A stretch of 29,722 nt of DNA from a virus, in IMG/VR virus record IMGVR_UViG_3300021963_000477, positions 1 through 29,722 of that record; one strand, given 5' to 3'. This document shows positions 11,181-21,507 of this stretch, one piece after another (the stretch's first letter is position 1; the number at the start of each line of letters is the position of its first letter). Under the pieces are notes generated by a model. It saw only the letters and a program-made list of their open reading frames with translations, did not search any database and had not been told where the DNA came from. The translations under genes were made by a program, and so were the position numbers.

Positions 11181-13016
11181 TTATTGTACTAGTGTTGCAT
11201 TTTCTATTCTGTTGCGGTCTAACGCTTGTGCAGTTGTCATGTCACCTGATACTACATAAGCCTTCGTAGGTGTCTGTTGTAATTGTGCTAACTGATTGAT
11301 TCCCGAGTTACCTACTACATTGAATGATGGTGCCTGTGGAATTGCTCCTCCATTTGGAACAGATGCTCCTCCACCTCCACCTGTAGAACCACCACCTTCA
11401 AATTTCTGTTGCCCGATTTTTGCTACATTAGCCAATCCTGATGCTACTGCTATACCTGCTGCAATTGCTCCACGTACAGGTGAACTCGGGTCGGGTAATG
11501 GCGTGAATTGTGAAGCGTAGGCTGATGTCGCACTTTGATAAGTTGTTATTAATGCACTTGCAATATTAGCAGCCTTCTGAATCTTAAACGCTGCCTTTGC
11601 TGCCTTCTCACTTCGCTTTCCGAATAGTTCTGTAATTTGTGCAATAGTATCGAAACCTGCTTTAGTTAATTTAACTTTCTCAGATTGTGCTTTTGCGTCT
11701 ATTTGTGATGCTCTTACTGCTTTAGCTTCTAGTATTAATAGTTCGTGTTCTGCTGCGTCTGTTTGAAGTTTAGTAGTAGCGTCAATGTGACCTTGTAAAG
11801 TAAGTTCTGAATGTTTAAGTAAGGATGCTTTTTTGTACTCTAATTTCTCGTAGCTTTCAAATTCCTTTTCAGTTTCTTTCTTAACTTTTTTATTTCTATC
11901 CTCTAATTCTTGTGCTGCTTTATCTGCAGCGTCTTTGTCAATTTGTTTAATTGAAAGTTGAAATCCTGCTCTTTGATTTTTTAGTTCAGCAAGTTTCTTT
12001 TTAGTTTCGTCAATAGTTTTATCTGCTTCTGCTTTTACTTCGTTCGGGTCAAACACTAAACTTGCAATACCTCTGTTTAATCCTTTGCGTAATCCGAAAT
12101 CCTTTCCTAATGCAGAACCAATACTATCAATCGTGCCTAATAAAAGTTGTAAAGGTGCAGTTAAGAATGTAATGATACCTTCTAAAATATCTCTATTTCG
12201 TTTTGCTGCTGCTACCTGTGCGTTTTTAGTTTCTTCTTGTTGAACTATTGTAGCTTCAGTTGCTGCTATAACTGCATCTATTTGTTTTAGCTTTAATTCT
12301 AGGATTTGCTTTTCAGTTTTACCTTGAAGTTTTAAGATGTTATCTTGTCCATCAATTGCTTCTAATTTTGCTTCTTGAGCTACTAGATTTGCATCCGTTT
12401 TTGCGTTGAGATTTTCTTGTTCGTCAGATACTCCACTGACTGCAGATTTAATGTCGTCCCAATATGCTGCCAAAGTTCCTAATGCTACTACAAGTAATCC
12501 AATACCAGTAGAACCGATAGCAGTTTTCATTGCAGAACCAAACGCCTTGATAGATGGAATGGCTTCTCTGAATCCTTTTACACCTTCCGAAATGGCAATT
12601 GCTGATTGTACTTTAAGTAAAGTTTCTTCAAGTTGTGCTGATTCCACACCCATTGCACCCATAGCACCCTGAGTAATAGCAAACGCTGATGTTGCACCTT
12701 GTAACGCACCACCAAGTTTACCACCCATTGTAGTGGCAGCGGCGTCAACTGCTAAATCCGTTTGAATCTGAACCTTTCTGTAATCTCCAACGGTCTTTAA
12801 TAAGTCCTTATACTCTTGAGTTGTGGTCTTTCCTGCGTTCGCTAGTTCATATAACCTGTCCTCAGCTTCACCCATACGAGTAGTGAGTGGTTGTAAGTCA
12901 CCATAAACTTCCTCAAAACTTGCTGAAACGTCATGCGTAGCTTTGGAGAGATTCTCCATAGACTTTACCGCATCTTTCGTGTTTACGTCAATTTCAATTA
13001 CTTTCTTTTCAGCCAT
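11181..13016 (-). CDS. tail tape measure protein
   Basis: The 611-residue protein has the layout of a tape measure: a helical N terminus, a hydrophobic region (about residues 150-185, IGSTGIGLLVVALGTLAAYW), long Lys/Glu/Ala-rich coiled coils (about 200-470), an Ala-rich membrane-like stretch, and a Gly-rich hinge (KFEGGGSTGGGGG) before the end KAYVVSGDMTTAQ. Tape measures span the tail lumen and set its length at about 0.15 nm per residue, which would give a tail of roughly 90 nm if the whole chain counts. It overlaps the 53-codon gene upstream by 8 bp. Confidence 0.8.
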   Translation of the reverse strand: MAEKKVIEIDVNTKDAVKSMENLSKATHDVSASFEEVYGDLQPLTTRMGEAEDRLYELANAGKTTTQEYKDLLKTVGDYRKVQIQTDLAVDAAATTMGGKLGGALQGATSAFAITQGAMGAMGVESAQLEETLLKVQSAIAISEGVKGFREAIPSIKAFGSAMKTAIGSTGIGLLVVALGTLAAYWDDIKSAVSGVSDEQENLNAKTDANLVAQEAKLEAIDGQDNILKLQGKTEKQILELKLKQIDAVIAATEATIVQQEETKNAQVAAAKRNRDILEGIITFLTAPLQLLLGTIDSIGSALGKDFGLRKGLNRGIASLVFDPNEVKAEADKTIDETKKKLAELKNQRAGFQLSIKQIDKDAADKAAQELEDRNKKVKKETEKEFESYEKLEYKKASLLKHSELTLQGHIDATTKLQTDAAEHELLILEAKAVRASQIDAKAQSEKVKLTKAGFDTIAQITELFGKRSEKAAKAAFKIQKAANIASALITTYQSATSAYASQFTPLPDPSSPVRGAIAAGIAVASGLANVAKIGQQKFEGGGSTGGGGGASVPNGGAIPQAPSFNVVGNSGINQLAQLQQTPTKAYVVSGDMTTAQALDRNRIENATLVQ

Positions 13017-17115: not shown

Positions 17116-17385
17116 TTAGATGATTACTACTCCGATTGCTTCAGCGACATACTCGTTCACTACTGAATTATCAGTCCCCCAAGTTAAGAATTGTTCTTCG
17201 GTCAAGGTGTAATTGTCTTGACTTAATACCTTTCCCTCTTCGGTTAGTAATTGCCAGTACGTTGTGCAAGTCGTTGCATCCGTTGCGAAGTTCAATACAA
17301 GTACGCTCAATCGTGTCGCAGTACCTTCGTTAAGTGGGTAGGGAATCGGTTTGATTGCTACTCCGTTTGTGTTTGTTGTTTCCAT
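17116..17385 (-). CDS. conserved-looking tail protein (89 aa)
   Basis: The protein reads as one small domain: AIKPIPYPLNEGTATRLSV, then ATTCTTYWQLLTEEGKVL, then EQFLTWGTDNSVVNEYVAEAIGV. I recall close relatives beside the tail fibre gene in other Bacteroidota phages, without a known function. It follows the tail fibre by 3 bp and has no membrane segment. It could be a small fibre-associated or fibre-assembly protein, which is a guess from position. Confidence 0.6.
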   Translation of the reverse strand: METTNTNGVAIKPIPYPLNEGTATRLSVLVLNFATDATTCTTYWQLLTEEGKVLSQDNYTLTEEQFLTWGTDNSVVNEYVAEAIGVVII

Positions 17386-17388
17386 ATT

Positions 17389-18762
17389 TTATAATAATAA
17401 TGCCCATCCAGTGGACTTGTTAACGTATAAACCTTCAGTTCCATCAGTTTGATAAACTACCAATCCAACAGCGGGAGACGCAATAGCGGTACGCTGTGCC
17501 TGAGTTTGTCTTGGAGGGAGGAAGCCACGAGTCGTGCTATCAACTTGTAGTTGACTACTTGCGTTAATTGTACCCGAACCATAGTAACCCGCACCCGTTA
17601 AACTAATTAAAGAGTAAAGTTTATTTCCCGCAGCATCGTCAAAAAACACAAAGTTGTTTGATGTTCCACCCGCTGAAAAACGAAATGTACCTGCACTTAC
17701 TCCGAGTCCCATACTTATACCTGCGCTTGTGTAAATAGCTAATTTAACATTATTTGTATCTGCTCCTAAATCAACTCTACCCGAAAGCAAGTTTAAACCC
17801 GTAGAAGATACATTACATATTTCAGTAAATGTTGCACCCGTATAGTTACCCATTGCAACGCGATTGCCAGAAGGTGTGCCTAATCTAATTGCTCCCGCTG
17901 CTAATCCGATTGCATAATCATTTATGCCCTCGTAAAGAAATATTTTTTTATCTAATGTTGCGGGGAATGTCATTTGTGTAACCCTCGCAGTACCATTAAC
18001 GTCTAGCTTGAATCCTGCGTTTGTTGTGGTGTTTACCCCTACGTTCCCATCGTTAAAGATAGTCATTCTGATAGCTCCATTTGTTCCGAATTGTGTAGGG
18101 AAATTTCCTCCGTTACCAAAAAACGAAGCATACTGAAGACCACCCGTAAACAAAAATCCACCGCCCGTACTATCCGTACCGAAATACGTTGTTGTGCCCG
18201 AATTGGAAACTTGTTGTGCTACTCCACTTGTACTCGCTCTTGATAATGAAATTGGATAATTTCCCGTAGTCACTATGCGCATTGCTCCGCTAATGTCAAG
18301 TGATTGTTGTGGAGAAGCATTGTTAATCCCCAACCTTCCATTAGTATTGTCCCAAAAAAAGTTAGCACTCTCACTCACCACATTCCCCGTACCTTCAAAC
18401 AATACACGTCCAACAGTACCCGAAGTGATTGCAGTCGTACCGATTGTGATTCCCGTAGATACAGTGAATGTTCTATCTGCTGAAAGGTCTTGTGTAGTTC
18501 CGTTTATTGTTAGGGTGCGTGTAGTTGGGACTTTGCCATTCAACGCAGTATTCAAGTCAGTTTGTGAGGATAGTGTTCCTGTGATAGTTCCCCAAGAAGC
18601 TGCTTGACTTGCTGAAATCTCTACATAGGCTGAACCTGTCCAACGATAGGTCTTGTTAGTGTCCTCTGCTATGTAGATTGTTTTTAAACTACCTGTAGCG
18701 GGAAATCCTGCTAGGTTTGCGTAGTTCTTTACCTGTGATGGAATGTTTATGTCTATTGCCAT
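17389..18762 (-). CDS. tail fibre protein
   Basis: The 457-residue protein opens with a short attachment segment (residues 1-45, YIAEDTNKTYRWTGSAYVEI). A long Gly/Thr/Asn/Ser-rich, beta-helix-like shaft follows with phrases such as GRLGINNASPQQSLDISG and GFKLDVNGTARVTQ. The end LQVDSTTRGFLPPRQTQAQRTA...GTEGLYVNKSTGWALL is common in phage fibres. There is no Ser-Asp autoprotease chaperone domain at the C terminus. It probably contacts the host surface. A 10-bp overlap joins it to the upstream gene. This stretch is richer in G and C than its neighbours, as is common in exchanged fibre genes. Confidence 0.75.
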   Translation of the reverse strand: MAIDINIPSQVKNYANLAGFPATGSLKTIYIAEDTNKTYRWTGSAYVEISASQAASWGTITGTLSSQTDLNTALNGKVPTTRTLTINGTTQDLSADRTFTVSTGITIGTTAITSGTVGRVLFEGTGNVVSESANFFWDNTNGRLGINNASPQQSLDISGAMRIVTTGNYPISLSRASTSGVAQQVSNSGTTTYFGTDSTGGGFLFTGGLQYASFFGNGGNFPTQFGTNGAIRMTIFNDGNVGVNTTTNAGFKLDVNGTARVTQMTFPATLDKKIFLYEGINDYAIGLAAGAIRLGTPSGNRVAMGNYTGATFTEICNVSSTGLNLLSGRVDLGADTNNVKLAIYTSAGISMGLGVSAGTFRFSAGGTSNNFVFFDDAAGNKLYSLISLTGAGYYGSGTINASSQLQVDSTTRGFLPPRQTQAQRTAIASPAVGLVVYQTDGTEGLYVNKSTGWALLL

Positions 18763-19403
18763 ACTAAATTTATTGTTTGATTGCTTAAAGTTGCAAATGT
18801 TGATGTCGCTACTTGTGTTCCGTCTATTTGTAGATTCAATGTCGTGTCAGGTAGCGTAAGAGTGTCTCCGCTTGGAATCGTTGCAGTATAACTTGCGTTC
18901 GTGTTTACAACGTATGAAGGCGAACAAAAAGGAGCATAGCTACCAGTGTCGCAAATCGTCATGTCGTTAGGAATCGTAACATCGAATGTCATCGTCCATC
19001 CTGCAAGTAAGTTCTCGAATCTTTCTGTAAATGGTTCTAATGCAGGTTCTCCTGCAACTACGAAATTTAAGTCCCATAGATTGCCGTGAAGCATCTGCTG
19101 ATAACATCTATTCAACACGTGGTGTTGTGTGTTTAGAACGTCTAATTCGTTGTTATTTTCTTGAAATATATCAGTTGTTTCCGTTTTGGAAATATCTACT
19201 ATATCCATTGCTAGAATAGATACGTTAAACGTCTGAGTGTTGCTTTGTAAAGACGAACTATTCACCATTATGTGAGTAAGTGGAAATATCGTCTGCTTGT
19301 TTAGATCAACTTGAAAGATGTCGCCTTGTGTAACAGAGTTTACTAACTCATCATTGTCAAAGTGCCACTTTAGTTTGTCTAGTATGTCGTAGAATCCTGT
19401 CAT
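18753..19403 (-). CDS. putative tail completion / terminator protein
   Basis: The 216-residue protein has an N-terminal domain (residues 1-145) with FYDILDKLKWHFDNDELVNSV, DIFQVDLNKQTIFPLTHIMV and FNVSILAMDIVD. This pattern resembles the small alpha-beta proteins that cap siphophage tails. A short Thr/Ser-rich beta domain follows (about 155-216). Its ATG overlaps the stop of the -1-frame chaperone product (ATGA at 19400-19403), so translation of the two may be coupled. Assigned mainly by position and fold type. Confidence 0.5.
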   Translation of the reverse strand: MTGFYDILDKLKWHFDNDELVNSVTQGDIFQVDLNKQTIFPLTHIMVNSSSLQSNTQTFNVSILAMDIVDISKTETTDIFQENNNELDVLNTQHHVLNRCYQQMLHGNLWDLNFVVAGEPALEPFTERFENLLAGWTMTFDVTIPNDMTICDTGSYAPFCSPSYVVNTNASYTATIPSGDTLTLPDTTLNLQIDGTQVATSTFATLSNQTINLVWQ

Positions 19404-19675
19404 CGTTTTAAATTACGTTCAAATTGTCTTCTTTCAATTTCGTTTTTTTGCTTTTCAAAGACAAGATAGGTAAGACATTTAGTAAGTCTGAGTTCGGTAA
19501 CTTCATCAAATCGTGTAACATCTCCTTTTGCGAGAGCATAAATGCTTTGATACCATCCCCATTGCTTGGCAAACTGAGTTGTTTCTGAAAAGTCGTTGAT
19601 AGGTTCTTGTCCTTCTTCATCTCCTTCTCCAAATAGTTCAGGGTAGCCTGCAGTAACTCGTTTCCTAAACTCCAA
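19400..19675 (-). CDS. -1 frame C-terminal extension of the tail assembly chaperone
   Basis: This frame has no ATG of its own near its start, yet it is clearly protein-like: FAKQWGWYQSIYALAKGD, then VTRFDEVTELRLTKCLTYL and a basic coiled end. I recall this pattern from Bacteroidota phage proteins where it follows a chaperone-like gene. It would be joined after residue 167 of the 19408-20175 gene by a -1 slip on the T9 run at 19674-19682, giving a product of about 258 residues. Its TGA overlaps the next gene's ATG. The gpG/gpGT frameshift of lambda is the model. Which product dominates is unknown. Confidence 0.65.
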   Translation of the reverse strand: MEFRKRVTAGYPELFGEGDEEGQEPINDFSETTQFAKQWGWYQSIYALAKGDVTRFDEVTELRLTKCLTYLVFEKQKNEIERRQFERNLKR

Positions 19676-20175
19676 AAAAAAACACTTGATGCTATTACCA
19701 CGTCAAGTGGAGCAAACTTCATTAACTCCTGAAAGTCTACATTCGGTTCATAAGGCAAGATATCGTATTTATCCTTTCGTGTTTTCACGATTGGTCTGTA
19801 CATCACTGACATCGCCTTGTGGTAACTATCCCAATTCGTAAGGTGTGATTCTAAATCTACATATTCCCCGAATGTGATTGCTTCTAACTCTGGAATGAAT
19901 CCAAATTCAATCTCTCCCTCTTCAGCTTTGATTTTAAACCTGTTTTGGAACTTAGGCTTCTCTGAGAATAACTTTGTGAAGTGTGCTATTAGCTCATTTA
20001 AGCTCGTTAGCTTCATTTTAACTACGTCCTTTAACTCTATACCACAAAAGATTTCTACCATCTTCTGAGCAACAAATTCTTCATCGTTGGAATCTGCCTG
20101 AACTTTTAAGAAGTCCTGATAGTGTTTAAGTGGAATTTCACTTAGGCTAGAAGGTACGTTGATTTCTAACTTCAT
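19408..20175 (-). CDS. putative tail assembly chaperone (zero-frame product)
   Basis: The 255-residue protein starts MKLEINVPSSLSEIPLKHYQ. Residues 1-167 hold a folded domain (QKMVEIFCGIELKDVVKMKL, EFGFIPELEAITFGEYVDLE, SVMYRPIVKTRKDKYDILPY). After the slip site the zero frame reads WSLGNELLQATLNYLEKE and a Lys-rich end. It lies downstream of the terminase block and upstream of tail genes, where phages encode tape-measure chaperones made in two forms by frameshifting. The tape measure itself is further along than usual. The leader matches that of the gene at 7665. The family name is not certain. Confidence 0.65.
   Translation of the reverse strand: MKLEINVPSSLSEIPLKHYQDFLKVQADSNDEEFVAQKMVEIFCGIELKDVVKMKLTSLNELIAHFTKLFSEKPKFQNRFKIKAEEGEIEFGFIPELEAITFGEYVDLESHLTNWDSYHKAMSVMYRPIVKTRKDKYDILPYEPNVDFQELMKFAPLDVVIASSVFFWSLGNELLQATLNYLEKEMKKDKNLSTTFQKQLSLPSNGDGIKAFMLSQKEMLHDLMKLPNSDLLNVLPILSLKSKKTKLKEDNLNVI
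19674..19682 (-). other. -1 ribosomal frameshift slippery site (T9)
   Basis: Nine Ts on the minus strand are read in the zero frame as GTT TTT TTT TGG, so T TTT TTT fits the X XXY YYZ slippery rule. A -1 slip leads directly into the open frame 19400-19675. Downstream within 30 bases only weak hairpins are visible (GTTT/AAAC; CAGG/CCTG at 19639-19650), so stimulation may come from elsewhere or be weak. Confidence 0.65.
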
Positions 20176-20189
20176 AATTTTAAAACGAT

Positions 20190-20369
20190 TTAATTTTTGT
20201 TTTGTTGCACTAGGATAATGTCGTATGCTGCAGTCAACATTTGGAAGTGTCTTCTAATCATCATAACATCATCGAATACTATTACAATCCGTTTTCCTGT
20301 ACGCTGATAGATGTAGTCCTCTACGACTCTTTTCATCATTGGTAAATCATCTGATGTTGTATTGTCCAT
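20190..20369 (-). CDS. small hypothetical protein (59 aa)
   Basis: The 59-codon frame (MDNTTSDDLPMMKRVVEDYI...) starts 23 bp inside the end of the large terminase gene and fills the space before the chaperone gene. It has an alternating pattern (KRIVIVFDDVMMIRRHFQML) suggesting one small alpha-beta or helical unit. No family recognised. The length, coding character and lack of another gene here support it. Confidence 0.6.
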   Translation of the reverse strand: MDNTTSDDLPMMKRVVEDYIYQRTGKRIVIVFDDVMMIRRHFQMLTAAYDIILVQQNKN

Positions 20370-21507
20370 AGTTCTTTTTTAGTCCTAATGTTTCCATCTC
20401 GTGATATCTTAAAGCATCTATAGCGTGGTTAAAATGATCAATAGGAACGTTTGTTTTCTCTCCGTCTTTCTTTACACTCCAACAATAGCTTCTAAGCTCT
20501 TTGATTAGGTTTGTACTCGCACTTGTAACTAAGTAGTCTTGTCGTTGCATTACGTCAATTCCAAACTTGATTGAGTCAACTCCTTTCGTTACTCCTTTAA
20601 TCATCTTTCCGAATCTACGAATCTCCTCGATTGATTTAGGTTCTGAACTATCTGCATAAATTGTTACATTATTTGGGAGCACTTTTGCAATGTCAGAGTT
20701 TACCATTCCTGTACGATAGCAAATCTCGTTTATGATTCTTTGTCCATTGTAGTTGTAGATTTCAATTGCTGATGTTGGATCATTCGTGTAACCAAAGTCA
20801 AGTCCGATTCCTATCAACTTTGCTTCGCTTGGTATTGTGTCTATTGTTTTCCAGTTGTTGAAGATTACACCCTCAAGGCTTCCGATTTCTCCTAGTCCGT
20901 AAACACGCCACCAATTCGCCCAATAGGAACTCGTGGCTGCTTTCTCACGGTTCTTTTCGATTTGGCTAACTATTGACTCATCTAACGCTTCGTTGTCTTT
21001 GTAAGTTAAGATAATGAAATCTGAGTCAGGTTCGTCTTTTAGTTCCTTGTGTACCCAAAACTCGTTTGCAGGATTAAAGTCTAAGAATACTTCCTTTTTG
21101 GTACGAATGGAAAGCTCGTTGTAAGATTCAAAGCTTACGTTGTTACACTCGTTTATGTAAAGGATATCACGCCTTGCTCCTCTGAGTTTAGATGCGTCAT
21201 CTGCTGAGAAGAACTCTATAACACTTCCGTTTGCAAATTCGTATCTTAGAAGTGACTTATTGAATCTGTCGTCAATATAACGTCCTGTCCATCGCATTAC
21301 TTTAACAAAGTCTTTTAATGCACCACGTCGCAAGTGAGGGATTGATTCAGCTACTACAGATACTTCTAGTCCTGCTTGTTTTGTACACTTGTCAATAAGC
21401 ACGGGTAAAATCCCAAATGTCTTTCCAGCACTGGTACCTCCTTGAATAATCTTAATCCGTTTTTTCAAGGATAGAATCTTGTTTATCGCAGTCGTTCTTT
21501 TAAACAT
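20347..21507 (-). CDS. terL: terminase large subunit
   Basis: The 386-residue protein has a full terminase layout. Walker A is GGTSAGKT (residues 23-30) and Walker B is DILYINE (114-120), followed by a coupling segment. The RNase H-like nuclease has acidic residues in GIGLDFGYTNDP (Asp237), IYADSSEP (Asp286) and FNHAIDALRY (Asp364). It packages the phage DNA into the prohead through the portal and cuts concatemers. The family resembles the PBSX/Terminase_3 type; length is short-normal. It follows the small subunit by 2 bp. Confidence 0.93.
   Translation of the reverse strand: MFKRTTAINKILSLKKRIKIIQGGTSAGKTFGILPVLIDKCTKQAGLEVSVVAESIPHLRRGALKDFVKVMRWTGRYIDDRFNKSLLRYEFANGSVIEFFSADDASKLRGARRDILYINECNNVSFESYNELSIRTKKEVFLDFNPANEFWVHKELKDEPDSDFIILTYKDNEALDESIVSQIEKNREKAATSSYWANWWRVYGLGEIGSLEGVIFNNWKTIDTIPSEAKLIGIGLDFGYTNDPTSAIEIYNYNGQRIINEICYRTGMVNSDIAKVLPNNVTIYADSSEPKSIEEIRRFGKMIKGVTKGVDSIKFGIDVMQRQDYLVTSASTNLIKELRSYCWSVKKDGEKTNVPIDHFNHAIDALRYHEMETLGLKKNYGQYNIR

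Follow-up and report, generated by a model that had tools for sequence, protein, structure and literature searches.

A conserved T run links two selected C-terminal reading frames in a predicted two-product gene of a Bacteroidota phage tail module

Introduction

The closest described relatives in design of the gene studied here are the tail assembly chaperones of phage lambda. The proteins gpG and gpGT have been described, as has the fact that both dissociate from the tail (PMC5009743). The mean distance from the slip site to the 0-frame stop is 26 nt in SEA-PHAGES and 36 nt in the phages of Xu et al. (PMC10885494). The frameshift predictor PRFect learned from sites with short distances between slip and stop and is reported to lose sites at which this distance is longer (PMC10885494), so that a class with long 0-frame tails would tend to be missed. 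A homopolymer run that gives access to an alternative frame is also a feature of transcriptional-slippage genes such as Shigella mxiE.

Here we analyse a gene on a 29,722-nt stretch of viral DNA (IMG/VR record IMGVR_UViG_3300021963_000477), the whole of which is called the window. The gene resembles that of gpG and gpGT in that two products with a common N-terminal part are predicted from its sequence by way of a -1 slip, in that it precedes the tape measure in the tail module and in that the shifted product has a different C-terminal domain. The unshifted lambda product ends soon past the slip, whereas here 264 nt separate the slip site from the 0-frame stop and constraint acts on both C-termini. 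The sequence showed no relation to that of gpG/gpGT. From genes of the mxiE type it differs in being a phage tail gene, both predicted products of which keep long conserved C-termini. Tail-chaperone recoding is usually described as a domain added to a shorter protein, whereas in this gene two frames are maintained at once over about 88 codons. What is unusual is an unshifted product with a conserved C-terminus of its own. In the open-access literature, of which the coverage was incomplete, we found no report of the T9 gene family, nor of a chaperone whose 0-frame tail is both long and constrained.

The Nonlabens phages P12024L and P12024S have a homologous gene that adjoins the large terminase and is annotated as 'hypothetical'. 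The gene of P12024L has the same T9 and carries WGWY in its -1 frame, but its 0-frame tail has only 25 codons and it is annotated as two separate hypothetical genes (phrog_32199 and phrog_38404) with no frameshift noted.

Results and discussion

The two-product gene was located on the minus strand, for which the preliminary description had given no orientation (Table 1). This description had proposed that a run of nine T's links two long frames, that the products have 255 and about 258 residues with 167 in common and 91 new ones, and that both frames end almost together on common DNA, the -1 stop overlapping the ATG of the next gene. All of these numbers were reproduced. The unshifted product has 255 aa and the product after a -1 slip 258 aa (167 + 91), and the C-terminal parts of both, 88 and 91 codons after the slip, are read in two frames from one stretch of ~270 bp. 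An independent start for the -1 ORF was rejected, as the sole start-like codon is a TTG at the slip, which is TTA in other lineages. The gene has one start and two predicted products linked by a conserved slip site; we infer that both proteins are made.

Table 1. Features of the two-product gene and its neighbours in the window
Feature	Position	Strand	Remarks
0-frame ORF, unshifted product	19408..20175	-	255 aa; stop codon included in the coordinates
N-terminal part common to both products	19675..20175	-	167 codons, the last two being the slip codons TTT TTT
T9 slip site	19674..19682	-	GTT TTT TTT TGG
Slippery heptamer T_TTT_TTT	19675-19681	-	inside T9
-1-frame segment	19400..19675	-	91 codons with conserved F-x-K-x-WGWY motif, then TGA (19400-19402)
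0-frame tail past slip site	19408..19674	-	88 codons + stop; overlaps the -1 segment
Next gene, 216 aa	18753..19403	-	ATG overlaps the -1 stop (ATGA, 19400-19403); N-terminal ~148 aa match phrog_30964 (unknown function)
Terminase large subunit	20347..21507	-	immediately upstream of the two-product gene
Tape measure protein	11181..13016	-	several genes downstream; PHROG tape-measure matches down to 1e-14

The conservation of the slip site was followed through homologous loci. A search with the 0-frame protein yielded 80 IMG/VR loci at 67-100% identity, and searches with the fused product yielded many more. Further copies were found in Flavobacterium, Bacteroidetes, Dysgonomonas and Prevotella genomes and in the Nonlabens phage P12024L. 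When annotated phages were searched, matches were obtained in Nonlabens phages only, and a Dysgonomonas/Prevotella profile detected a copy in 1 of 296 Bacteroidota genomes. At 198 of 199 homologous loci a T9 or T10 run is present in phase. The 189 loci analysed in full comprise 186 with T9 and 3 with T10, and the remainder of the 198 are truncated at contig ends, with T9 present. The single exception, L221, has an internal deletion that spans the slip site; at all other loci the in-phase heptamer T_TTT_TTT is invariant. The slip codons are 100% TTT and TTC is never used (0 synonymous differences vs 716 expected). A second set comprised 133 unique, divergent loci, most of them at 28-67% identity. 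Here the runs extend from T9 to T12, and the WGW motif was found in the -1 frame at all 121 loci where it is recognisable and at none in the N-terminal frame. Over 187 representatives, 176 runs are T9, 10 are T10 and one is T12.

Neither a disrupted -1 frame nor an unconserved T run, which had been named beforehand as speaking against dual coding, was seen across the homologues. The occurrence of the T9 alone is not beyond chance: it is the one homopolymer of at least nine in the 29.7-kb window, against a mean of 5.4 in dinucleotide shuffles. Its significance comes from its conservation. A homopolymer is a classical site of error, and the arrangement might thus stem from faulty sequencing or assembly or from the decay of a frameshifted gene. 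The identical T9 and the same split are found, however, at about 200 loci including phage P12024L, and both frames are constrained, which makes this explanation hardly conceivable. Chance or error as the source of the slip arrangement is therefore ruled out by the conservation.

Several loci deviate in detail. In L221 (L221:3001-3600) the slip site is lost through the deletion, which leaves the N-terminal part fused to the 0-frame tail; the contig is possibly chimeric. Two T10 alleles, L083 (478-1239) and L146 (7977-8729), encode the N and WGWY domains in a single frame. L146 sits in Dysgonomonas sp. 520, whose second copy (L148) is T9. A second, diverged copy was also found within one Prevotella assembly (L395, MAG G003:C52:313400-314900), where the slip region reads AGT TTT TTT TTA, with a T9 in the other phase; its -1 frame contains WGWY. 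In the window itself, long A/T runs seem to be avoided outside the slip site.

Both frames were then compared at the codon level across homologues, the check put forward in the preliminary description. Codon differences at the same amino acid were counted and normalised residue by residue to the common N-terminal region. The window clade was represented by 61 sequences with 0-frame tails of at least 78 codons and a sister clade by 43 sequences whose 0 frame ends earlier (tails of 54-65 codons). In the window clade, where the 80-locus search favours conserved 0-frame tails because it was ranked by similarity to the 0-frame product, the synonymous observed/expected ratio (O/E) of the -1 frame in the overlap was 0.41 (0.32-0.49). 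This bias does not apply to the sister clade, which came from searches with the fused product. In that clade the ratio was 0.47 (0.33-0.62) in the overlap and 0.90 (0.65-1.15) past the 0-frame stop. Because pairs share sequences, the test was rerun with disjoint pairs. This gave 0.39 for the window clade and 0.43 for the sister clade in the overlap; in the 3' part the ratio was 0.60 in the window clade, whose 0 frame has not yet ended, vs 0.78 in the sister clade, which is past its stop (p=0.003). When only codons unable to create a 0-frame stop were counted, the ratios were 0.45 and 0.44, which indicates selection on the 0-frame residues beyond mere openness.

The avoidance of stops was analysed by permuting codons within columns. 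In the 61 window-type representatives no 0-frame stop occurs over the first 78 tail codons, whereas permutation created 19.7 stops on average (range 14-24). In three control frames of the window clade, the observed stops were about as many as the permuted ones. Random synonymous recoding was harsher than permutation, since TTA before G gives an immediate 0-frame stop, and the permutation result was relied on.

These results bear on the view that only the -1 product is functional, the 0 frame being long as a passive consequence of the composition of the -1 protein. Consistent with such passivity, lineages differ in their 0-frame tails, which range from 16 to 94 codons, so that not every member of the family needs a long one, and the far end of the tail is predicted with low confidence. 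Against it, synonymous changes in the -1 frame are held to about 0.4 under the open 0 frame and are far less suppressed past its stop, and permutation creates stops that the real sequences lack. Passive openness is contradicted by the synonymous deficit together with the codon permutation, and we consider it very unlikely. Taken together, the deficit confined mostly to the overlap and the avoidance of 0-frame stops bear out the dual coding proposed earlier, and purifying selection on both frames is strongly supported.

The length of the 0-frame tail was placed on a maximum-likelihood tree of 116 sequences, in which the root is arbitrary, some deep forks are open and the Dysgonomonas copies were left out. 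Tails of at least 78 codons occur in about four separated lineages, namely the window clade, L314/L315, the L246-L272-L251 group and Prevotella. Most other lineages have tails of 52-67 codons, and the Nonlabens clade has 16-25 codons. The simplest reading is an independent lengthening of the 0-frame tail; losses are also possible. The occurrence of short, medium and long tails in different lineages makes it possible to trace and test how an overprinted domain grew.

The preliminary description had taken the gene for a frameshift cassette. That the slip is programmed is supported by the conservation of the T run; the slipping machine may be either the ribosome or the RNA polymerase. In the latter case gene and products would be the same, with the polymerase adding one base on the T9. 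A or T runs are known slippage sites in bacteria (PMC5009743, PMC3711429), and the run of about nine or more that characterises slippage genes is present in the 187 representatives with 9, 10 or 12 T's. No run falls below nine, though T_TTT_TTT needs only seven, and in Prevotella and Dysgonomonas the boundaries of the run are shifted, yet there are again nine or ten T's. RNA folding downstream of the slip site did not exceed control windows or shuffles (mean z -0.01 to -0.6), and upstream of it no Shine-Dalgarno-like element was seen by eye in ten representatives. Stimulators are not present at all -1 frameshift sites. The T10 alleles L083 and L146 encode the shifted product directly, which slippage would tolerate; they could also be assembly errors or decayed copies. 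The flanking T's may equally be explained by amino acids (V/L/I ahead of the run and, in the -1 frame, L or F following it), and the chaperone recoding studied so far is ribosomal. The runs never shorter than nine, the lack of a stimulator signal and the T10 alleles make transcriptional slippage a serious rival to ribosomal frameshifting, and we regard it as a real possibility, though somewhat less likely than not.

With regard to function, both halves of the gene correspond to database entries of unknown function. No Pfam or NCBIfam profile matched, and the PHROG matches were of 'unknown function' apart from one weak 'tail protein' (PHROG 166, E=0.004). AlphaFold2 predicted a confident N domain (residues 1 to ~180, pLDDT mostly 83-94 over residues 11-170), a helical 0-frame tail that is less certain than the N domain and, with the N and -1 parts of the fused product modelled apart, a helical -1 domain. 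Fold searches returned uncharacterised phage proteins; the named BFVD matches were weak and read tail assembly chaperone or baseplate protein (prob 0.72, 0.47 and 0.18; E 0.1-0.5). Profile and fold searches against solved structures (PDB) gave nothing convincing. The role of a tail assembly chaperone assigned in the preliminary description is retained as the best guess on the grounds of the architecture, the position in the tail module and the weak fold matches, and it is weakened by the missing Pfam/NCBIfam match and by a position next to the large terminase instead of a visible one between the major tail protein and the tape measure. A slip gene of the tail or neck module with another task, for example a baseplate-hub or connector assembly factor, would suit this location next to the terminase and the phrog_30964 and phrog_29822 neighbours, the one weak match named 'Baseplate protein' and the lack of a match to chaperone family profiles. 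The weak fold matches are also named chaperone, however, and among tailed phages it is the chaperone pair that shows wide conservation as a recoding gene (PMC5009743), so that we judge another task rather unlikely.

Overall, we think it probable that this is a slip-linked two-product gene in which both C-termini are selected and the two products, A and B, are most likely tail assembly chaperones of the gpG/gpGT type. Most expression would read the 0 frame and give protein A, the common N domain with the 88-residue 0-frame tail. A fraction would slip one base at the T9 and give protein B, the N domain with the 91-residue helical WGWY domain. By analogy, A and B would act as the gpG- and gpGT-like chaperones of a siphovirus-type tail in Bacteroidota phages; as in lambda, the N domain might coat the tape measure and the WGWY domain might recruit tail-tube subunits. 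Slipping would then swap one conserved C-terminus for another rather than add one. In the window clade, shifted and unshifted ribosomes would stop within ~8 nt of each other at the start of the next gene, which may keep this gene translationally coupled in either case. A more far-reaching proposal, which we put forward tentatively and with more doubt than conviction, is that these loci form a large, unrecognised Bacteroidota phage family whose conserved C-terminal domains, nearly equal in length and encoded in the same DNA, are exchanged through slippage at T9, possibly that of RNA polymerase. The overprinted 0-frame domain would have lengthened several times independently from a shorter ancestral tail, and the slip would be a domain-swap switch, not a lambda-type add-on.

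The two-product gene sits in a Bacteroidota phage tail module; the large terminase directly precedes it and the tape measure lies downstream. Small and large terminase lie upstream; the gene is followed by phrog_30964- and phrog_29822-type genes and further tail genes, past which come the tape measure, a protease, a candidate capsid protein and the portal. The tape measure is thus several genes further on, as had been predicted. The phrog_29822 family is weakly related to 'tail completion or Neck1'. P12024L has a matching order of terminase, homologue, phrog_30964, phrog_29822, phrog_35281 and tape measure. In the close relative L002, the homologue of the 216-aa gene has 151 aa and is followed directly by the phrog_29822 gene. 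The ~65-residue C-terminal extension of the 216-aa gene is absent from L002, as are a 457-aa gene with weak PHROG tail/peptidase matches and an 89-aa gene, which together occupy positions 17116-18762 of the window.
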